The position numbers were made by a program, and so were the translations under genes. 64,000 nt of DNA from Cystobacter fuscus (GTDB taxonomy: Bacteria > Myxococcota > Myxococcia > Myxococcales > Myxococcaceae). The stretch lies in the NCBI RefSeq assembly GCF_002305875.1, contig NZ_CP022098.1, positions 62,001 through 126,000 of the forward strand, in the 5' to 3' direction. The notes under the pieces are model-generated. The model had not been told where the DNA came from and made no database searches. It saw nothing but the letters and a program-made list of their open reading frames with translations. Positions 12,256 through 29,081 of this stretch are shown piece after piece. Each line of letters opens with the position of its first letter. Positions within the stretch are counted from its first letter, which is position 1.

Positions 12256-13359
12256 ATGAAGATGACGTGGACGTGGCGATCGCTCGCCAACACGGCTCTG
12301 GTTGTGCTCGCGCTGGGATTGTTTCTTGGACAGGGGGATCCGGCGCTCGCGGCCGGATGGAATTGCCAGGGCAATCGGATCCCGGTGGCGCTCGCGCCAG
12401 ACCTGCCCAGGAACCAGCAGGTGTTCGCGCGTCTGTGTTTGCCAGAGGGCCCATCCCCCGGCACGGTGCAACTGCTCGTGCACGGCGCCACGTATACTCA
12501 TCTGTATTGGGATTTCCCGGACCCCACCGGTGGCACCCGACGCTACTCCTACGTGAACGCGGCGCTGGACGCGGGCTTCGCCACCCTGGCGATGGATCGC
12601 ATTGGCAGCGGAGCGAGCTCCCGCCCTCCAGGCGAGCTCGTCACCATCGAGGCCAACGCCTACGTCGTCCACCAGGTGGTCCAGGCACTGCGCGCGGGCA
12701 CGGTGTGGGGGCCCAAGGGCGCGCTGGGCTTCCAGAAGGTGGTGCTCGTCGGCCACTCCTATGGCTCTTTGACCTCCTGGTACGAGGTGACCGACTACCA
12801 GGATGTCGATGCCGTCATCCTCAGTGGCGCGAGCCATACCCCCGTGCCCTCTGGTGTGGAGAATTTCAAAAGGTCCCTGCATCCCGCCGAGGTAGATCCG
12901 ATCCTTTCTGGCAGAGGCTATGCTTCGACGTACCTGACCACCATGCCCGGCACGCGCGAGGCCGTGTTCTATCTTCCGAGCCGGGCCGACCCCGCGGTGA
13001 TTGCCCTCGACGAGCGGACCAAGAGCACGAGCACTCTCGCCGAGCTGTCCGCCGTGCCCGCCATCTTCGCGCGCCCGCTGGACATCCGCGTCCCGGTGCT
13101 GCTCGTCAATGGCACCGAGGACAGGATCTTCTGTGGTCCCACTCCCAGCGGCATCTGCTCGGATGCTCGGACATTGATCGCCGCCGAGACGCCCCGGCTC
13201 GGTCCCCGGGTGCCGTGTGTCGAGGCCCGGGTGTTGCCCGGAGAGGGTCATATGCTCAACCTCATTCCAGACGCGCCCCGGTGGTTCGCCGTGGCCCAGG
13301 AGTGGGCCACGCGGATCGTGGGAGCGGAGAAGGGTCCCGCGCCCGGCTGCGCGCCGTGA
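12256..13359 (+). CDS. Secreted alpha/beta hydrolase
   Basis: The 367-residue protein begins MKMTWTWRSLANTALVVL and continues with a hydrophobic core ending near ALAAG, a Sec signal peptide, so it acts outside the cytoplasm. The alpha/beta-hydrolase fold is shown by the oxyanion-side LLVHGATYTH, the nucleophile elbow VGHSYGS (Ser within about 170-176), the acid-strand region VLLVNGTEDRIF and the catalytic His in GEGHMLN. Substrate cannot be told; esters or lipids are likely. ATG 12256 is preferred to ATG 12250 because GGGAGG then lies seven bases upstream. A TAGGGT hexamer at 12221-12226 may be its -10 element. It converges on the membrane gene at 13369. Confidence 0.82.
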   Translation: MKMTWTWRSLANTALVVLALGLFLGQGDPALAAGWNCQGNRIPVALAPDLPRNQQVFARLCLPEGPSPGTVQLLVHGATYTHLYWDFPDPTGGTRRYSYVNAALDAGFATLAMDRIGSGASSRPPGELVTIEANAYVVHQVVQALRAGTVWGPKGALGFQKVVLVGHSYGSLTSWYEVTDYQDVDAVILSGASHTPVPSGVENFKRSLHPAEVDPILSGRGYASTYLTTMPGTREAVFYLPSRADPAVIALDERTKSTSTLAELSAVPAIFARPLDIRVPVLLVNGTEDRIFCGPTPSGICSDARTLIAAETPRLGPRVPCVEARVLPGEGHMLNLIPDAPRWFAVAQEWATRIVGAEKGPAPGCAP

Positions 13360-13368
13360 AATCCCTGC

Positions 13369-13695
13369 TCAATCGCTCTTCACGGGCGGCGCGGAGGTGA
13401 GGGCAACCGCGCGCCGCGTGTTCGATTCGATCTCGACCTGGCAGAGCGCCTGCTGTGCCTGGAGTTGGTAGACGAACGCGCGGCCCCGGCCGATGCTGAT
13501 GCCAATCAGGGTGCCGAACAGGGCGCCCACGAGGGTGAGCACCGTGTTGCTCGGGGAGTTGTTCGATGCGACGCCCAGGGCCCCGGCGCCCATGATGAGC
13601 CCCATGATGCCGGAGGTGAAAACGATGCGCGAGGCCCGGCGGTAGAGCGCTTGGGCATGTTGGGCGATGATCTTCGGATCGTACTGCACGGCCAT
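13369..13695 (-). CDS. Small membrane protein of unknown function
   Basis: The 108-residue product starts MAVQYDPKIIAQHAQALYRR and has two hydrophobic helices (about residues 27-46, IVFTSGIMGLIMGAGALGVA, and 53-72, VLTLVGALFGTLIGISIGRG) joined by a short NNSPSN turn, followed by a soluble tail rich in Gln. It is probably an inner-membrane hairpin protein. The start is supported by AAAGGAG seven bases upstream; the reading frame stays open for another 60 codons but with poor composition. No family is recognised. It is convergent with the secreted hydrolase, nine bases away. Confidence 0.78.
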   Translation of the reverse strand: MAVQYDPKIIAQHAQALYRRASRIVFTSGIMGLIMGAGALGVASNNSPSNTVLTLVGALFGTLIGISIGRGRAFVYQLQAQQALCQVEIESNTRRAVALTSAPPVKSD

Positions 13696-26693: not shown

Positions 26694-26833
26694 GCGCTCT
26701 CGGGGGGCCGACGGCGTGCCAGGAGTGTCCCGGGGATGTCACGGCGACGTCACGCGCGTCCGGTGTAGAGTGGGGACACGCGCTGCCCCCATTCAGGCGG
26801 AGTGCCAGGGCGGGGGGGCGCCGGGAGCGCTCG

Positions 26834-27769
26834 ATGAATCCACTGGATTGGAATGGGCAGCAGTTCCTCGCCATGTACGGGCCGTTCCTCCTGTTCGTCT
26901 GCGTGGGGGCGGTGATCTGGAAACGCCTGCTCAACCGGCCGTCTGACGTCCCCACGCCCGCCGAGCTGGACCTGAACCCCTATCTGGCGGCCACGCTGGA
27001 GAGCGAGGACACGGCGGTGAGGGCGGCCGTGGTGGCGCTCGTGCACGACGGCGCGCTGAAGTTCGGGGAAGAGGATGAGGAGTTGAGCGTCGCCAAGGCC
27101 CTGCCCACGCGGGCGCTGGAGCTCGAGCGGGTCGTGCATGCCGCGGTGGCCCAGGGCAAGACGTCGCTCGGGGAGTTGCGCGAGGCGGCCCAGACGGAGC
27201 TCTCCCGGATCGTGCAGTCCCTGCGGGCGCGAGGCTTCATGCGCACGCCCGAGCAGGACTCGCGCTACAGGCACCATCCCCGGCTGTTCCTGCTCGCGGC
27301 GCTCGCGCTCGGGGTCATGAAGGTGATGGTGGGCCTGTCCCGGGACAGGCCCGTGGGCTTCCTCGTGCTGCAGATCCTCCTGGGAGGAGGGGTGGGGTTC
27401 GCGTTGCTGAGTGGCGGCTCCCGGCTCACTCCCCGAGGCCGGGAGGCGCTGAGGCTGCTGCGCAAGCGTCATGAGCCCCTGCGCACCACCGCCGCCTCGG
27501 AGGGCAGTGCCCAGACGATGAGCACGCGCGACGTGGCCCTGGCGATGGCGCTCTTCGGGGTGGGCGGGCTCGCGCTGGTCGGCGGCCATTCCCTCCTGCG
27601 CGACTACCTGTTTCCCCCGAGCCCCGCGGGAGGTGGCGGTTCCGGAGGGGACGGCTCGAGCAGCAGCAGCTCGAGCAGTTGCAGCAGCTCGAGCAGTTGC
27701 AGCAGCTCGAGCAGTTGCAGCGGCGGAAGCAGCGGCTGCGGCGGCTGTGGAGGAGGCGGCGGGGATTGA
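26834..27769 (+). CDS. TIGR04222-type membrane protein with a Ser/Cys/Gly-rich tail
   Basis: The 311-residue protein has about four membrane helices (11-30, 151-167, 175-195, 235-251) and a cytoplasmic-looking segment (40-145) with winged-helix-like content (TLESEDTAVRAAVVALVHDG). It ends in a low-complexity tail of Gly and Ser with Cys at 283, 289, 295, 302 and 305, the first three spaced every six residues in SSSSSC units. This matches the TIGR04222 type of bacterial protein, whose function is unknown. The stop codon overlaps the TTG start of the DUF692 gene. GGGAG lies before the ATG. The tail looks like a candidate for enzymatic modification by the next gene's product, which is inference. 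Confidence 0.82.
   Translation: MNPLDWNGQQFLAMYGPFLLFVCVGAVIWKRLLNRPSDVPTPAELDLNPYLAATLESEDTAVRAAVVALVHDGALKFGEEDEELSVAKALPTRALELERVVHAAVAQGKTSLGELREAAQTELSRIVQSLRARGFMRTPEQDSRYRHHPRLFLLAALALGVMKVMVGLSRDRPVGFLVLQILLGGGVGFALLSGGSRLTPRGREALRLLRKRHEPLRTTAASEGSAQTMSTRDVALAMALFGVGGLALVGGHSLLRDYLFPPSPAGGGGSGGDGSSSSSSSSCSSSSSCSSSSSCSGGSSGCGGCGGGGGD
27665..27718 (+). repeat. Three tandem 18-bp repeats encoding SSSSSC in the Cys tail
   Basis: AGCAGCTCGAGCAGTTGC occurs three times in a row (27665, 27683, 27701) inside the TIGR04222-type gene. Each copy encodes Ser5-Cys. The copies are identical in DNA, so tail length can change by slippage. The repeats also read open in the other plus frames, which produces spurious Gln/Leu-rich frames. 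Confidence 0.93.
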
Positions 27770-28596
27770 AGCGGCTCGAGGGCGTGGGAGTAGGCTGGCG
27801 GCGGCAGCTCGCGCACTTCCTCGACACCTGGGAGGGACTGGGTTTCGTGGAGGTGCTGGCCGAGCAGTTCGATGACCGGGGCGCCCTGCCCGAGCCGCTC
27901 CTCCAGCTCAAGGAGCGTGGGGTGCCGGTGGTGGTGCACGGGGTGTCACTGGGGCTGGGTGGCGCCGAGCCTCCCTCGCCCGCGCGGCTCTCCCGGCTGG
28001 CGCGGCTCGCCGAGCGGCTGGGCGCGGTGTGTGTGAGCGAGCACCTGGCCTTCGTGCGCGCGGGGGGCCTGGAGTCCGGGCACCTGCTGCCGGTGGCGCG
28101 CCACGAGCAGTCCCTGGAGGTGCTCGCGGACAACATCCGGCGGGCCGAGGCGGCGCTCCCGGTACCCCTGGCGCTGGAGAACGTGGCGAGCCTCTTCGAG
28201 TGGCCCGCTCCCGCCTTCTCCGAGGCGGGGCTGCTCACGGGGGTGCTCGAGCGCACGGGGGCGGGGGTGCTGCTGGACGTGGCCAACCTGTACGCCAACG
28301 CGCTCAACCTGGGCACGGACGCGCGAGCGGTGCTGGCGGCGGTGCCGCGCGAGCGCCTCTTCTACGTGCACGTGGCGGGCGGGGTGCGGCACGGCGGGCT
28401 GTACCACGACACCCATGCGCACGCGCTGCCCGAGGGACCCCTGGCCCTCCTGGAGGAGCTGACGGCGCGGGTGGGAGCGGTGCCGGCGCTGCTGGAGCGG
28501 GATGATCGCTTCCCGCCCGTGGAGGAGCTCGTGGGCGAGCTGGAGGCCATTCGGGGGGCGATGGCCCGGGGCGTGGCGCGCCGGGAGACGGCATGA
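27766..28596 (+). CDS. DUF692 (MbnB/TglH-like) multinuclear iron enzyme
   Basis: The 276-residue protein is a TIM-barrel DUF692 family member. Relatives MbnB, TglH and ChrH oxidatively modify Cys residues of peptides with a di- or tri-iron centre. Likely iron ligands are all visible: His58 (VVVHGVS), Glu92/His93 (SEHLAF), Glu138-Asn139 (LENVAS), Asp171 and Asn174 (LDVANLY), His202 (VHVAGG), Asp215 and His217/219 (DTHAHALP), Glu244. The start is TTG 27766, overlapping the upstream stop as TTGA, with GGAGGAGG nine bases before it. It also overlaps the next gene by ATGA. The upstream Cys-rich tail is the obvious candidate substrate, by inference. Confidence 0.88.
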   Translation: MKRLEGVGVGWRRQLAHFLDTWEGLGFVEVLAEQFDDRGALPEPLLQLKERGVPVVVHGVSLGLGGAEPPSPARLSRLARLAERLGAVCVSEHLAFVRAGGLESGHLLPVARHEQSLEVLADNIRRAEAALPVPLALENVASLFEWPAPAFSEAGLLTGVLERTGAGVLLDVANLYANALNLGTDARAVLAAVPRERLFYVHVAGGVRHGGLYHDTHAHALPEGPLALLEELTARVGAVPALLERDDRFPPVEELVGELEAIRGAMARGVARRETA

Positions 28597-29081
28597 GCCG
28601 CGCGCGCGAGGAGCTGGCCCGGGCGCAGGCGGAGCTGATGCGCGCGTTGGAGCTGGGGGAGCCGGTGCCCACGGGCTTCGACGCCGAGCGGGTCCGGGCC
28701 ACGGCGGACACGCTGCTCGCCAAGCGTCGGCGGGGAGTGCGGCGCGCGTGGCCCGTGCTCGAGCGGGCGCTCGGGGAGGCCTTCGCCGGGGAGTTCGATG
28801 CCTGGGCCCGGGCCCATCCCCCGCGCGCCTTCGAGCCCCACGCGGGCGTGGAGGGCTACCGCTTCGCCCTGGCGCTGCACGACCAGGGACGTCTTCCCCG
28901 GGAGGCGGAGGCGGAGGTGCTCGGCTTCGGGGTGCGCTGGCGGATCACCCCCACGGGGGGACTGGCCCCGCGATGGGGGCTCGTCTTCCGGATGCTGCGG
29001 ATGGGGGAGCGGCGGCGGTGGAATTGGGCGGTGCGGCTGCCCGGGGGGCGCGTGCTTCGGGGGCGGCTACCTGGCGGGTGA
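28593..29081 (+). CDS. SCO6045-like partner of the DUF692 enzyme
   Basis: The 162-residue protein starts MSRAREELARAQAELMRALE and continues with PVPTGFDAERVRATADTLLAKRR and ARAHPPRAFEPHAGVEGYRF. This resembles the small proteins (SCO6045 type) found beside DUF692 genes in streptomycetes, by memory and not by search. The N-terminal part is helical, and the C-terminal GVRWRITPTGGLAPRWGL to RLPGGRVLRGRLPGG is beta-rich. It probably acts as a binding partner, like MbnC for MbnB, or as the leader-recognition subunit. Its ATG overlaps the DUF692 stop (28593-28596), and the end overlaps the convergent TetR gene by 15 bases. Confidence 0.7.
   Translation: MSRAREELARAQAELMRALELGEPVPTGFDAERVRATADTLLAKRRRGVRRAWPVLERALGEAFAGEFDAWARAHPPRAFEPHAGVEGYRFALALHDQGRLPREAEAEVLGFGVRWRITPTGGLAPRWGLVFRMLRMGERRRWNWAVRLPGGRVLRGRLPGG

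Follow-up and report, generated by a model that had tools for sequence, protein, structure and literature searches.

Which protein is the substrate of the MNIO encoded in this part of the Cystobacter fuscus genome, and under what conditions would the enzyme be made? The window, that is the whole stretch of 64,000 nucleotides analysed here (contig NZ_CP022098.1, positions 62,001 to 126,000), carries three overlapping genes on the plus strand at 26834–29081, encoding a TIGR04222 membrane protein (gene A), an MNIO enzyme (gene B) and a 162-aa partner (gene C). MNIO is the current name of the former DUF692, a family of iron enzymes that work with a helper protein to alter cysteines chemically. Gene A runs from ATG 26834 to TGA 27767–27769; the TTG start of gene B at 27766 overlaps its stop (TTGA), and ATG 28593 of gene C overlaps the stop of gene B (ATGA). 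An earlier reading of the window, made from the sequence only, had described these genes as one coupled cassette, and both overlaps are seen as it described them.

The membrane protein and its cysteine-rich tail

Gene A (26834–27769, plus strand, 311 aa) belongs to the TIGR04222 family, scoring 142 bits against the NCBIfam cut-off of 43. In its AlphaFold2 model (mean pLDDT 85.3), helices span residues 8–33, 139–169, 175–192 and 231–245, and we read these as four membrane helices. The charge distribution over 54 rows of the family suggests that the lobe at about residues 32–155 is cytosolic. The candidate MNIO substrate is the Cys-rich Gly/Ser tail of residues 266–311 (27629–27766, plus strand), most of which is modelled with pLDDT below 50. 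An eight-Ser run ending in Cys is followed by two SSSSSC units and then by SGGSSGCGGCGGGGGD, placing cysteines at residues 283, 289, 295, 302 and 305. The sequence-only reading of a four-helix protein with SSSSSC repeats and further Cys thus agrees with the model and the tail.

The Ser/Cys part of the tail is encoded by an 18-nt tandem repeat at 27663–27721 on the plus strand (Tandem Repeats Finder, 3.3 copies, 100% match). Such a repeat can slip, and tail length differs among close relatives (63 residues in the window protein, 77 in L130 and 68 in L134), as would be expected if the tail were functionless low-complexity sequence in which a GC-rich repeat drifts neutrally. We regard this as highly improbable: in the 28 Myxococcota rows with a linked MNIO described below, cysteine accounts for 7.2% of the tail residues (118 of 1642) and 0.5% of the core residues (33 of 7000), a 15-fold excess, and all 28 have at least two tail Cys and a CGGC within the last 20 residues. 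Cys tails are also present in actinobacterial and planctomycete relatives.

A distant link of gene A to GPP34 is possible. Compared with seven actinobacterial GPP34 proteins, it gave E 9e-6 across 81 columns, and VIA-align placed GOLPH3/Vps74 at Z 8.3 to 6.3, alongside generic helix bundles with comparable values; Foldseek alone found nothing significant for the gene A model, and a GPP34 search of the C. fuscus genome gave no match. A winged-helix or RRE-type lobe was also considered. CRP/FNR-type domains matched weakly (E about 4e-4, profile positions 31–89), the lowest E in the same list being 2e-4 for a linker-type match at positions 231–289, and a profile-profile comparison against the partner family gave a negative result (E 0.59). 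On the weak CRP/FNR-type matches and the negative partner comparison, the idea that gene A brings its own RRE was dropped. The DUF2207_C domain (PF20990) weakly matches the TIGR04222 core in 19 of the 54 rows (best E 1.1e-5), the window protein scoring 22 bits against a curated cut-off of 33. DUF2207 tails are Gly/Ser-rich and are not known to carry Cys.

The MNIO and its predicted partner

Gene B (27766–28596, plus strand, TTG start) reaches 251 bits against PF05114 (cut-off 25), in agreement with its earlier assignment to DUF692, and has solved relatives in 3bww, 8hci (TglH) and 7dz9 (MbnB). Its sequence is that of an MNIO in which no conserved residue is lost: H58, H93, E138, D171, N174, H202, D215, H217, E244 and D246 are all present, and are 98–100% conserved in 105 cassette-type rows and 100% conserved in five other MNIOs of the same genome. 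It falls below the NCBIfam cut-offs for BufB (192 of 310 bits), HvfB (156 of 360), ApyH (102 of 400), ChrH (51 of 600) and MbnB (45 of 325). A plasmid search with this MNIO returned 311 records, every one below 60% identity.

Gene C (28593–29081, plus strand, ATG start) reached the cut-off of none of the Pfam or NCBIfam models. The sequence-only reading had called it SCO6045-like. The gene and its ATGA overlap stand, and the label is unconfirmed because gene C matched no Pfam or NCBIfam model of that name in the versions searched. Against DUF2063, the signature of PME-type 1 partners, it scores 13.1 bits (cut-off 27.2), and 11 of 60 relatives match that model weakly (E up to 1; best E 0.0013). 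With the AlphaFold2 model (pLDDT 92.8), the first six VIA-align ranks are chains of the known MNIO partners TglI, NGO1945 and MbnC, at Z 7.4 to 4.2, followed by Z 3.9 at rank 7, all below the caution level of 8. Foldseek alone returned nothing at E < 0.001, and a sequence-only PDB search with the partner gave nothing at E < 0.05, annexin-type rows ranking first. Since the six known partner chains rank first by fold, gene C is, by predicted fold and by its position after the MNIO, a PME-type 2 partner, and its earlier description as the small partner of a DUF692 enzyme is consistent with both.

Conservation of the module

TIGR04222, MNIO and partner form a conserved module. An MNIO lies directly downstream of TIGR04222 in 28 Myxococcota rows, counted with rebuilt profiles for both families; all 28 are Cys-tailed and 26 have the partner, whose position relative to the MNIO was taken from the first MNIO profile, seeded partly with antisense translations. 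Comparison of the gene order across genomes, suggested with the sequence-only reading as a check, thus finds its cassette recurring among Myxococcota, with tail and MNIO widely found together. A profile grown from gene C scores 100 bits or more in 29 of 195 Myxococcota genomes, each of which is one of the 32 with TIGR04222 over cut-off. A thirtieth match (G014, 32.6 bits) adjoins its TIGR04222 gene, and four genomes (G094, G096, G023 and G153) have matches of 22–34 bits without TIGR04222 over cut-off; the Fisher test of partner against TIGR04222 in Myxococcota leaves these four out and ignores kinship. Of 246 actinobacterial genomes drawn evenly, 11 have the partner, in every case with an MNIO adjoining or fused, and TIGR04222 is over cut-off in nine of these 11; conversely, the partner is present in nine of the ten genomes where TIGR04222 exceeds its cut-off. 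MNIO and partner are a single fused protein in seven actinobacterial loci. The module is split in G063 and G066, each with one partner match, where TIGR04222 stands with an MNIO and no partner at one locus (L104, L105) and with the partner and no MNIO at another (L119, L125).

The same survey bears on whether the tail is the substrate. It may instead be that the MNIO-partner pair acts on another protein encoded elsewhere and that gene A is a co-regulated scaffold with unmodified cysteines, present as thiols, disulfides or plain metal ligands. Such a scaffold would account for tails kept without the enzyme: of 16 Myxococcota TIGR04222 rows with no MNIO directly downstream, 12 still have at least two tail Cys, and for eight of these the locus as fetched contains no MNIO; the other four are two tandem-array copies, L111 (MNIO 0.8 kb away) and L114 (at a contig end). 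One genome (G056) has a five-Cys tail and no MNIO match at all, and another (G163), which lacks a partner match and has its only MNIO on a different contig, shows a six-Cys tail on a TIGR04222 match that reads through one stop. Among the 11 actinobacterial genomes with MNIO and partner, fusions included, the nearby TIGR04222 tail is Cys-free in four and TIGR04222 is undetected nearby in two. MNIO genes are also reported missing in a third of TIGR04222 genomes (PMC12452194). An unmodified scaffold nevertheless fits poorly with the tight coupling of the three genes, with tail Cys in all 28 MNIO-linked Myxococcota rows, with the restriction of the stronger Myxococcota partner matches to TIGR04222 genomes, and with the presence of TIGR04222 in most actinobacterial partner genomes. 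In three of the fusion genomes, moreover, second TIGR04222 copies (L208–L210) have a single tail Cys each, so that a substrate in trans is possible. We therefore consider the scaffold reading unlikely. Modification of the tail, which the sequence-only reading had inferred and which the survey supports in part, is preferred here, and it stays a proposal because Cys tails occur without an MNIO nearby and six of the 11 actinobacterial pairs have no Cys tail beside them.

A PHO-box-type site upstream of the cassette

A direct repeat of PHO-box type, TGTCAC-N5-CGTCAC with an 11-nt period, lies on the plus strand at 26737–26753, 97 nt upstream of the gene A start codon. It provides the two 11-nt direct repeats of a Pho regulon promoter, in the head-to-tail layout described for PHO boxes (PMC4415409). 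A weak -10-like hexamer, TAGAGT, read by eye, follows at 26766–26771 on the plus strand and is similar in an alignment of four close relatives (L130, L134, L106 and L107). The repeat pattern has 19 matches in the C. fuscus genome against one for the reversed control, with weaker enrichment in G128 (13 against 5), and it precedes phoB- and pstC-type genes of C. fuscus, and also Porin_O_P-, 5'-nucleotidase- and Ppx-type genes. A PhoB-type regulator is encoded at 12889–13602 of locus L259. A matrix made from sites of Pho-type genes alone places the window site above 99% of background and finds a site before 21 of the 28 MNIO-linked genes, in 16 as the exact repeat; the site is absent before the other seven, including that of the close relative L130. 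Its presence before most MNIO-linked genes points to phosphate starvation as the trigger of the cassette. An actinobacterial counterpart, the repeat GYTCA-N6-GYTCA upstream of TIGR04222, was dropped, as it was found in 0 of 159 plus-strand rows of other loci, among which L039 is myxobacterial.

Alternatively, the cassette could be a membrane-bound cousin of bufferin and captophorin copper protection, responsive to copper, with the GTCAC repeat serving a regulator other than PhoB. BufB and HvfB are indeed the named MNIO models closest to gene B, and the characterised 5-thiooxazole peptides are tied to copper detoxification (PMC13097082). Gene B is nevertheless below the cut-offs of these models, and both the 11-nt layout of the repeat and its recurrence before genes of Pho type speak for PhoB, so that we find a copper response improbable. 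Under the favoured phosphate reading, a PHO-box-type site before an MNIO cassette appears to be new here, a limited search of the literature on MNIOs with phosphate starvation having returned nothing relevant.

Comparison with known systems

Plesiocystis pacifica is also a myxobacterium. It is the source of one of the PME-type 2 models of Antoine et al. 2025 (PMC12452194), who proposed the extracytoplasmic Cys-rich tails of TIGR04222 proteins as MNIO substrates, so that the tail-as-substrate idea is already published as a proposal. Their TIGR04222-MNIO-PME-type 2 loci comprise the same protein families as the window cassette and carry the same proposal; TIGR04222 is found there mostly in Actinomycetota, whereas the window cassette is myxobacterial, and the main text has no word beginning "Myxo". 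PME-type 2 partners are reported for at least 10% of TIGR04222 clusters (PMC12452194), compared with 26 of the 28 MNIO-linked Myxococcota rows here. The PHO box, the MNIO-partner fusions and the split loci do not appear in the passages of PMC12452194 compared here.

The captophorins and bufferins (fontiphorin, oxazolin; PMC13097082) resemble the window system in that an MNIO and a partner act on Cys and a small residue is preferred after it; residues adjoining the tail Cys in the 28 MNIO-linked rows, the window included, are G, S and one A, never Lys. Their product is 5-thiooxazole, at minus 4 Da per site, which is only proposed for the window tail, and their precursors are peptides with PME-type 1 (DUF2063) partners (PMC13097082). 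The window candidate, by contrast, crosses the membrane several times, and its partner stays below the DUF2063 cut-off. The captophorin combination of a Lys-Cys or Cys-Lys motif with a PME-type 1 partner is accordingly absent from the 28 MNIO-linked rows and gene C. The residue following D246 is D247 in the window MNIO, and the one following Asp249 in FonB is Phe250, an equivalence taken from the ERD motif rather than from an alignment to FonB.

DAG-RiPPs and the C-terminally modified proteins of the ChrH subfamily (PMC12636315) are similar to the window system in that the MNIO recognises a C-terminal substrate motif and that some products are proteins above 30 kDa and some are lipid-anchored; membrane-bound MNIO products have been reported. 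They differ in their ChrH-type MNIO, a model that the window MNIO matches with 51 bits (cut-off 600), and in lipoprotein anchoring. The sequence-only reading had set a membrane-tethered product apart from known RiPPs, taken to have free-peptide precursors, a distinction that is out of date given the 2025 TIGR04222 proposal (PMC12452194) and the >30 kDa and lipoprotein-type products (PMC12636315).

A proposed maturation cassette

We infer a self-contained maturation cassette in which gene A provides a scaffold anchored in the membrane, with the cysteines to be modified in its C-terminal Gly/Ser tail. The cytosolic MNIO and its PME-type 2 partner, held together, would oxidatively modify these cysteines, most likely into heterocycles of the thiooxazole type, before the tail leaves the cytosol. 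Helix four would insert after modification and so place the tail on the outer side of the cytoplasmic membrane, where it would serve as a tethered ligand for soft metals, and PhoB-type regulation would switch on expression when phosphate is scarce, in most of the myxobacterial cassettes examined. This explanation as a whole, comprising tail modification, a tethered metal ligand and a PhoB-type switch, seems to us reasonably probable. More tentatively, a dedicated MNIO-PME2 pair induced by phosphate starvation may act on a multi-pass membrane protein and turn its outward Cys tail into a series of sulfur heterocycles. This membrane-tethered soft-metal ligand would be made as phosphate, and with it the chelation of metals by phosphate and polyphosphate, runs low. 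If this is true, it would have no precedent in the literature searched, either as an MNIO system controlled by Pho or as one proven to act on a multi-pass membrane protein.

Among proposed MNIO substrates the TIGR04222 tails form a large class, the modifications and roles of which remain to be investigated (PMC12452194). The conserved PHO-box-type site suggests low phosphate as a growth condition under which to seek the product in a myxobacterium, and the fused and split MNIO-partner arrangements are natural constructs for tying the partner to this enzyme. Modification of the tail would bring multi-pass membrane proteins within the reach of MNIO chemistry, and would extend that chemistry beyond copper stress to phosphate stress.

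A TIGR04222-MNIO-partner cassette

Three genes lie head to tail on the forward strand at 26834-29081, in a genome of 12.35 Mb. Gene A encodes a TIGR04222 membrane protein of 311 aa (142 bits against a cut-off of 43), gene B an MNIO enzyme (formerly DUF692; PF05114, 251 bits), and gene C a protein of 162 aa that falls below every Pfam and NCBIfam cut-off, its top Pfam match being DUF2063 at 13.1 bits against 27.2. The TTGA overlap of A with B and the ATGA overlap of B with C bear out the coupling of three genes claimed by the sequence-only reading. The genome has no TIGR04222 match apart from gene A, and eight MNIO matches; the nearest named MNIO match beyond this genome, from Archangium lansinium, is 80% identical. 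The cassette is genuine and well conserved, and exemplifies a class that has been proposed but is so far hypothetical. The survey by Antoine et al. 2025 (PMC12452194) already puts forward the tails of TIGR04222 proteins as substrates of MNIOs whose partners are of PME-type 2, i.e. those with an NGO1945/TglI-like fold and no DUF2063 signature, and PMC12636315 describes MNIO-modified proteins of more than 30 kDa and lipoprotein hybrids.

Gene C had been called SCO6045-like, a name found in one open literature library only in a gene table. Its model has a mean pLDDT of 92.8 (60 sequences), and Foldseek returned no match to it at E < 0.001. In a VIA-align comparison with 996 chains, where every Z is below the level for trusting one match alone, ranks 1-6 are all MNIO partners: TglI (8hi7, Z 7.4, 4.7 Å, 149 aligned; 8hci, Z 6.7), NGO1945 (3dee, Z 6.3) and MbnC (7dz9, Z 5.8; 7tcu, 5.0; 7fc0, 4.2). 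The next row has Z 3.9. TglI and MbnC chain names follow entry titles and passages of PMC12452194, the chain-by-chain assignment being our reading. Because the six top rows are all partner proteins, gene C is taken, by its modelled fold, to be an MNIO partner.

Solved relatives of gene B include 3bww, TglH and MbnB. Residues H58, H93, E138, D171, N174, H202, D215, H217, E244 and D246 are kept at 98-100% in 105 cassette-type rows, and this set is also present in five other MNIOs of the same genome (L142-L146). W11, H106, R112, N123, W146, H214, H219 and D247 are found at 91% or more in cassette MNIOs and are absent from L142-L146; as at least H214 also aligns in TglH, this second set distinguishes cassette MNIOs from L142-L146 rather than from MNIOs in general. 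A 60-MNIO tree, whose bootstrap had not converged, places six of the other seven enzymes of this genome in one group (support 99/94), joined by one cassette-type row (L095), while the seventh, L148, is an unplaced, very long branch. Some of these seven genes (L142-L148) adjoin bufferin-like or DUF2063-like genes, by eye.

Tail and topology of gene A

Residues 266-311 of gene A are rich in Gly, Ser and Cys (Cys 283, 289, 295, 302 and 305), and the Ser/Cys stretch is an 18-nt tandem repeat at the DNA level. The AlphaFold2 model (mean pLDDT 85.3, 54 sequences) contains four long helices that we take to span the membrane; a confidently modelled lobe separates helices 1 and 2, and pLDDT is below 50 over most of the tail. 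Across 54 aligned rows, Lys plus Arg per 100 residues is 12.5 and 18.4 in the two long loops, 0.7 in the N-terminus and 2.6 in the tail, and thus the positive-inside rule predicts a tail on the outside, where passages of PMC12452194 likewise put it. Lys and Arg are also frequent in the short loop that joins helices 2 and 3 (16.9 per 100), which counts against this topology. Separately, the TIGR04222 core (26834-27769, residues about 41-263) may be distantly related to GPP34 (GOLPH3/Vps74), with Z 8.3 and 7.8 in VIA-align, E 9e-6 across 81 columns in hhalign, and a best E of 0.0038 for Pfam GPP34, in 2 of 54 rows.

Distribution of the module

Among 195 Myxococcota genomes, TIGR04222 has a match in 42 and is over cut-off in 32; MNIO has a match in 126, including all of those 32 except G056. 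The partner profile matches 34 genomes, 29 of them at 100 bits or more, all 29 being TIGR04222 genomes. G014 has a match of 32.6 bits adjoining its TIGR04222 gene, and two genomes with TIGR04222, G056 and G163, have no match to the profile. Matches of 22-34 bits occur in G094, G096, G023 and G153, all without TIGR04222 over cut-off; as that of G023, the one whose position was looked at, lies 111 nt downstream of the MNIO there, such weak matches may represent partners that serve other MNIOs.

The 39 Myxococcota loci hold 44 TIGR04222 gene copies (rows), some of them fragments. In 28 rows, called MNIO-linked, an MNIO lies -60 to 200 nt downstream; every one of these has two or more Cys in the tail and CGGC among the final 20 residues, and for 26 of them the locus also contains the partner. 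The three-gene order and the pairing of Cys tail with DUF692 thus recur elsewhere, a comparison that the sequence-only reading had called for. Two or more tail Cys also occur in 12 of the remaining 16 rows. Of these 12, two belong to a tandem array as additional copies (L109), a third (L111) has an MNIO some 0.8 kb distant, and a fourth, L114 of G115, is close to a contig end; G115 has an MNIO and partner close to where a different contig ends (L211). In none of the other eight does the locus contain an MNIO, so a neighbouring MNIO is not required for a Cys tail.

Several loci have unusual arrangements. G093 (L109:6148-10041) has four tandem TIGR04222 genes, one without a Cys tail, alongside a single MNIO and a single partner. 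In L119, L125 and L139, which lack an MNIO and include a locus of G056, a small nucleotidyltransferase-like gene (by eye) overlaps the TIGR04222 start. At L106:7105-7491 (G091) and L107:5585-5992 (G092), second TIGR04222 copies without MNIO carry a PHO-box-type repeat, and a small protein that has four Cys and looks secreted comes after each copy.

In an even draw of 246 actinobacterial genomes, TIGR04222 matches 45, of which the 10 over cut-off were used, the partner 11 and MNIO 14. MNIO is beside or fused to the partner in all 11 partner genomes, and nine of the 10 TIGR04222 genomes have a partner; the exception is G210, whose TIGR04222 match is broken in two close to the end of a contig. 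A Cys tail lies beside the MNIO-partner pair in four of 10 re-fetched loci (L197, L198, L203, L204) and in L040 of G195. TIGR04222 has no tail Cys in the MNIO-partner loci L199-L202 and was not detected in L206 and L207. These cases provide the strongest evidence against a fixed substrate role. Several Pseudonocardiaceae loci among L040-L103 have two or three TIGR04222 paralogues with differing Cys tails and one MNIO.

Enzyme and partner are sometimes split and sometimes fused, which fits the two acting together. Both G063 and G066 have a locus that pairs TIGR04222 with MNIO and lacks a partner (L104, L105), and another that pairs TIGR04222 with the partner and lacks an MNIO (L119, L125). Each genome has a single partner match, against seven MNIO matches in G063 and three in G066, so the partner could serve any of several MNIOs. 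In seven actinobacterial loci (L197, L199-L202, L206, L207) MNIO and partner form one open reading frame. A partner match is found in 92 of 94 loci with MNIO, most loci having been picked by similarity to the window MNIO. The seven fusions lie near HemY-/HemQ-like heme-synthesis genes, by eye, with HemQ in only some of them.

A PHO-box-type site upstream of the module

A direct repeat, TGTCAC-N5-CGTCAC, lies upstream of gene A at 26737-26753. The PHO box consists of two 11-nt direct repeat units, with CTGTCAT in E. coli, according to passages of a review (PMC4415409). GTCAY-N6-GTCAY occurs within 250 nt upstream, at 83-101 nt, in 19 of the 44 Myxococcota rows, 16 of them MNIO-linked; of 7800 random 250-nt segments of these loci, 45 contain it. 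With a matrix made from nine Pho-type sites only, 24 of the 44 upstream stretches outscore 99% of 2340 background stretches, and 21 of these belong to the 28 MNIO-linked rows. Among 159 rows from the remaining loci, no GYTCA repeat precedes TIGR04222, and so Pho-type regulation is claimed for Myxococcota only.

YGTCAC-N5-YGTCAC has 19 matches in the C. fuscus genome against one for the reversed pattern. Apart from gene A, it precedes, by Pfam, a phoB-type response regulator, as two overlapping boxes, and a permease that we read as pstC, whose locus also encodes an ABC ATPase and a phosphate-binding-type protein. In G062 (15 against one) it precedes close homologues, by eye, of both genes, as well as Porin_O_P, 5'-nucleotidase and a second receiver, and in G128 (13 against five) a Ppx-GppA gene and the TIGR04222 gene. 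Many other matches are within genes, or before genes without an evident phosphate role. The repeat likely marks the Pho regulon in the myxobacterial genomes G000 and G062, and more weakly in G128. Besides 26737-26753, likely Pho regulon loci with this repeat are L217, L216, L241, L243, L245, L251, L252 and L255.

Modification of the gene A tail by the MNIO enzyme is the best reading of the cassette, and one we consider somewhat favoured, although it has clear exceptions. What was not found in print is the phosphate link, one open literature library having nothing related to MNIO and phosphate starvation. It is also the most readily testable part of the cassette reading.
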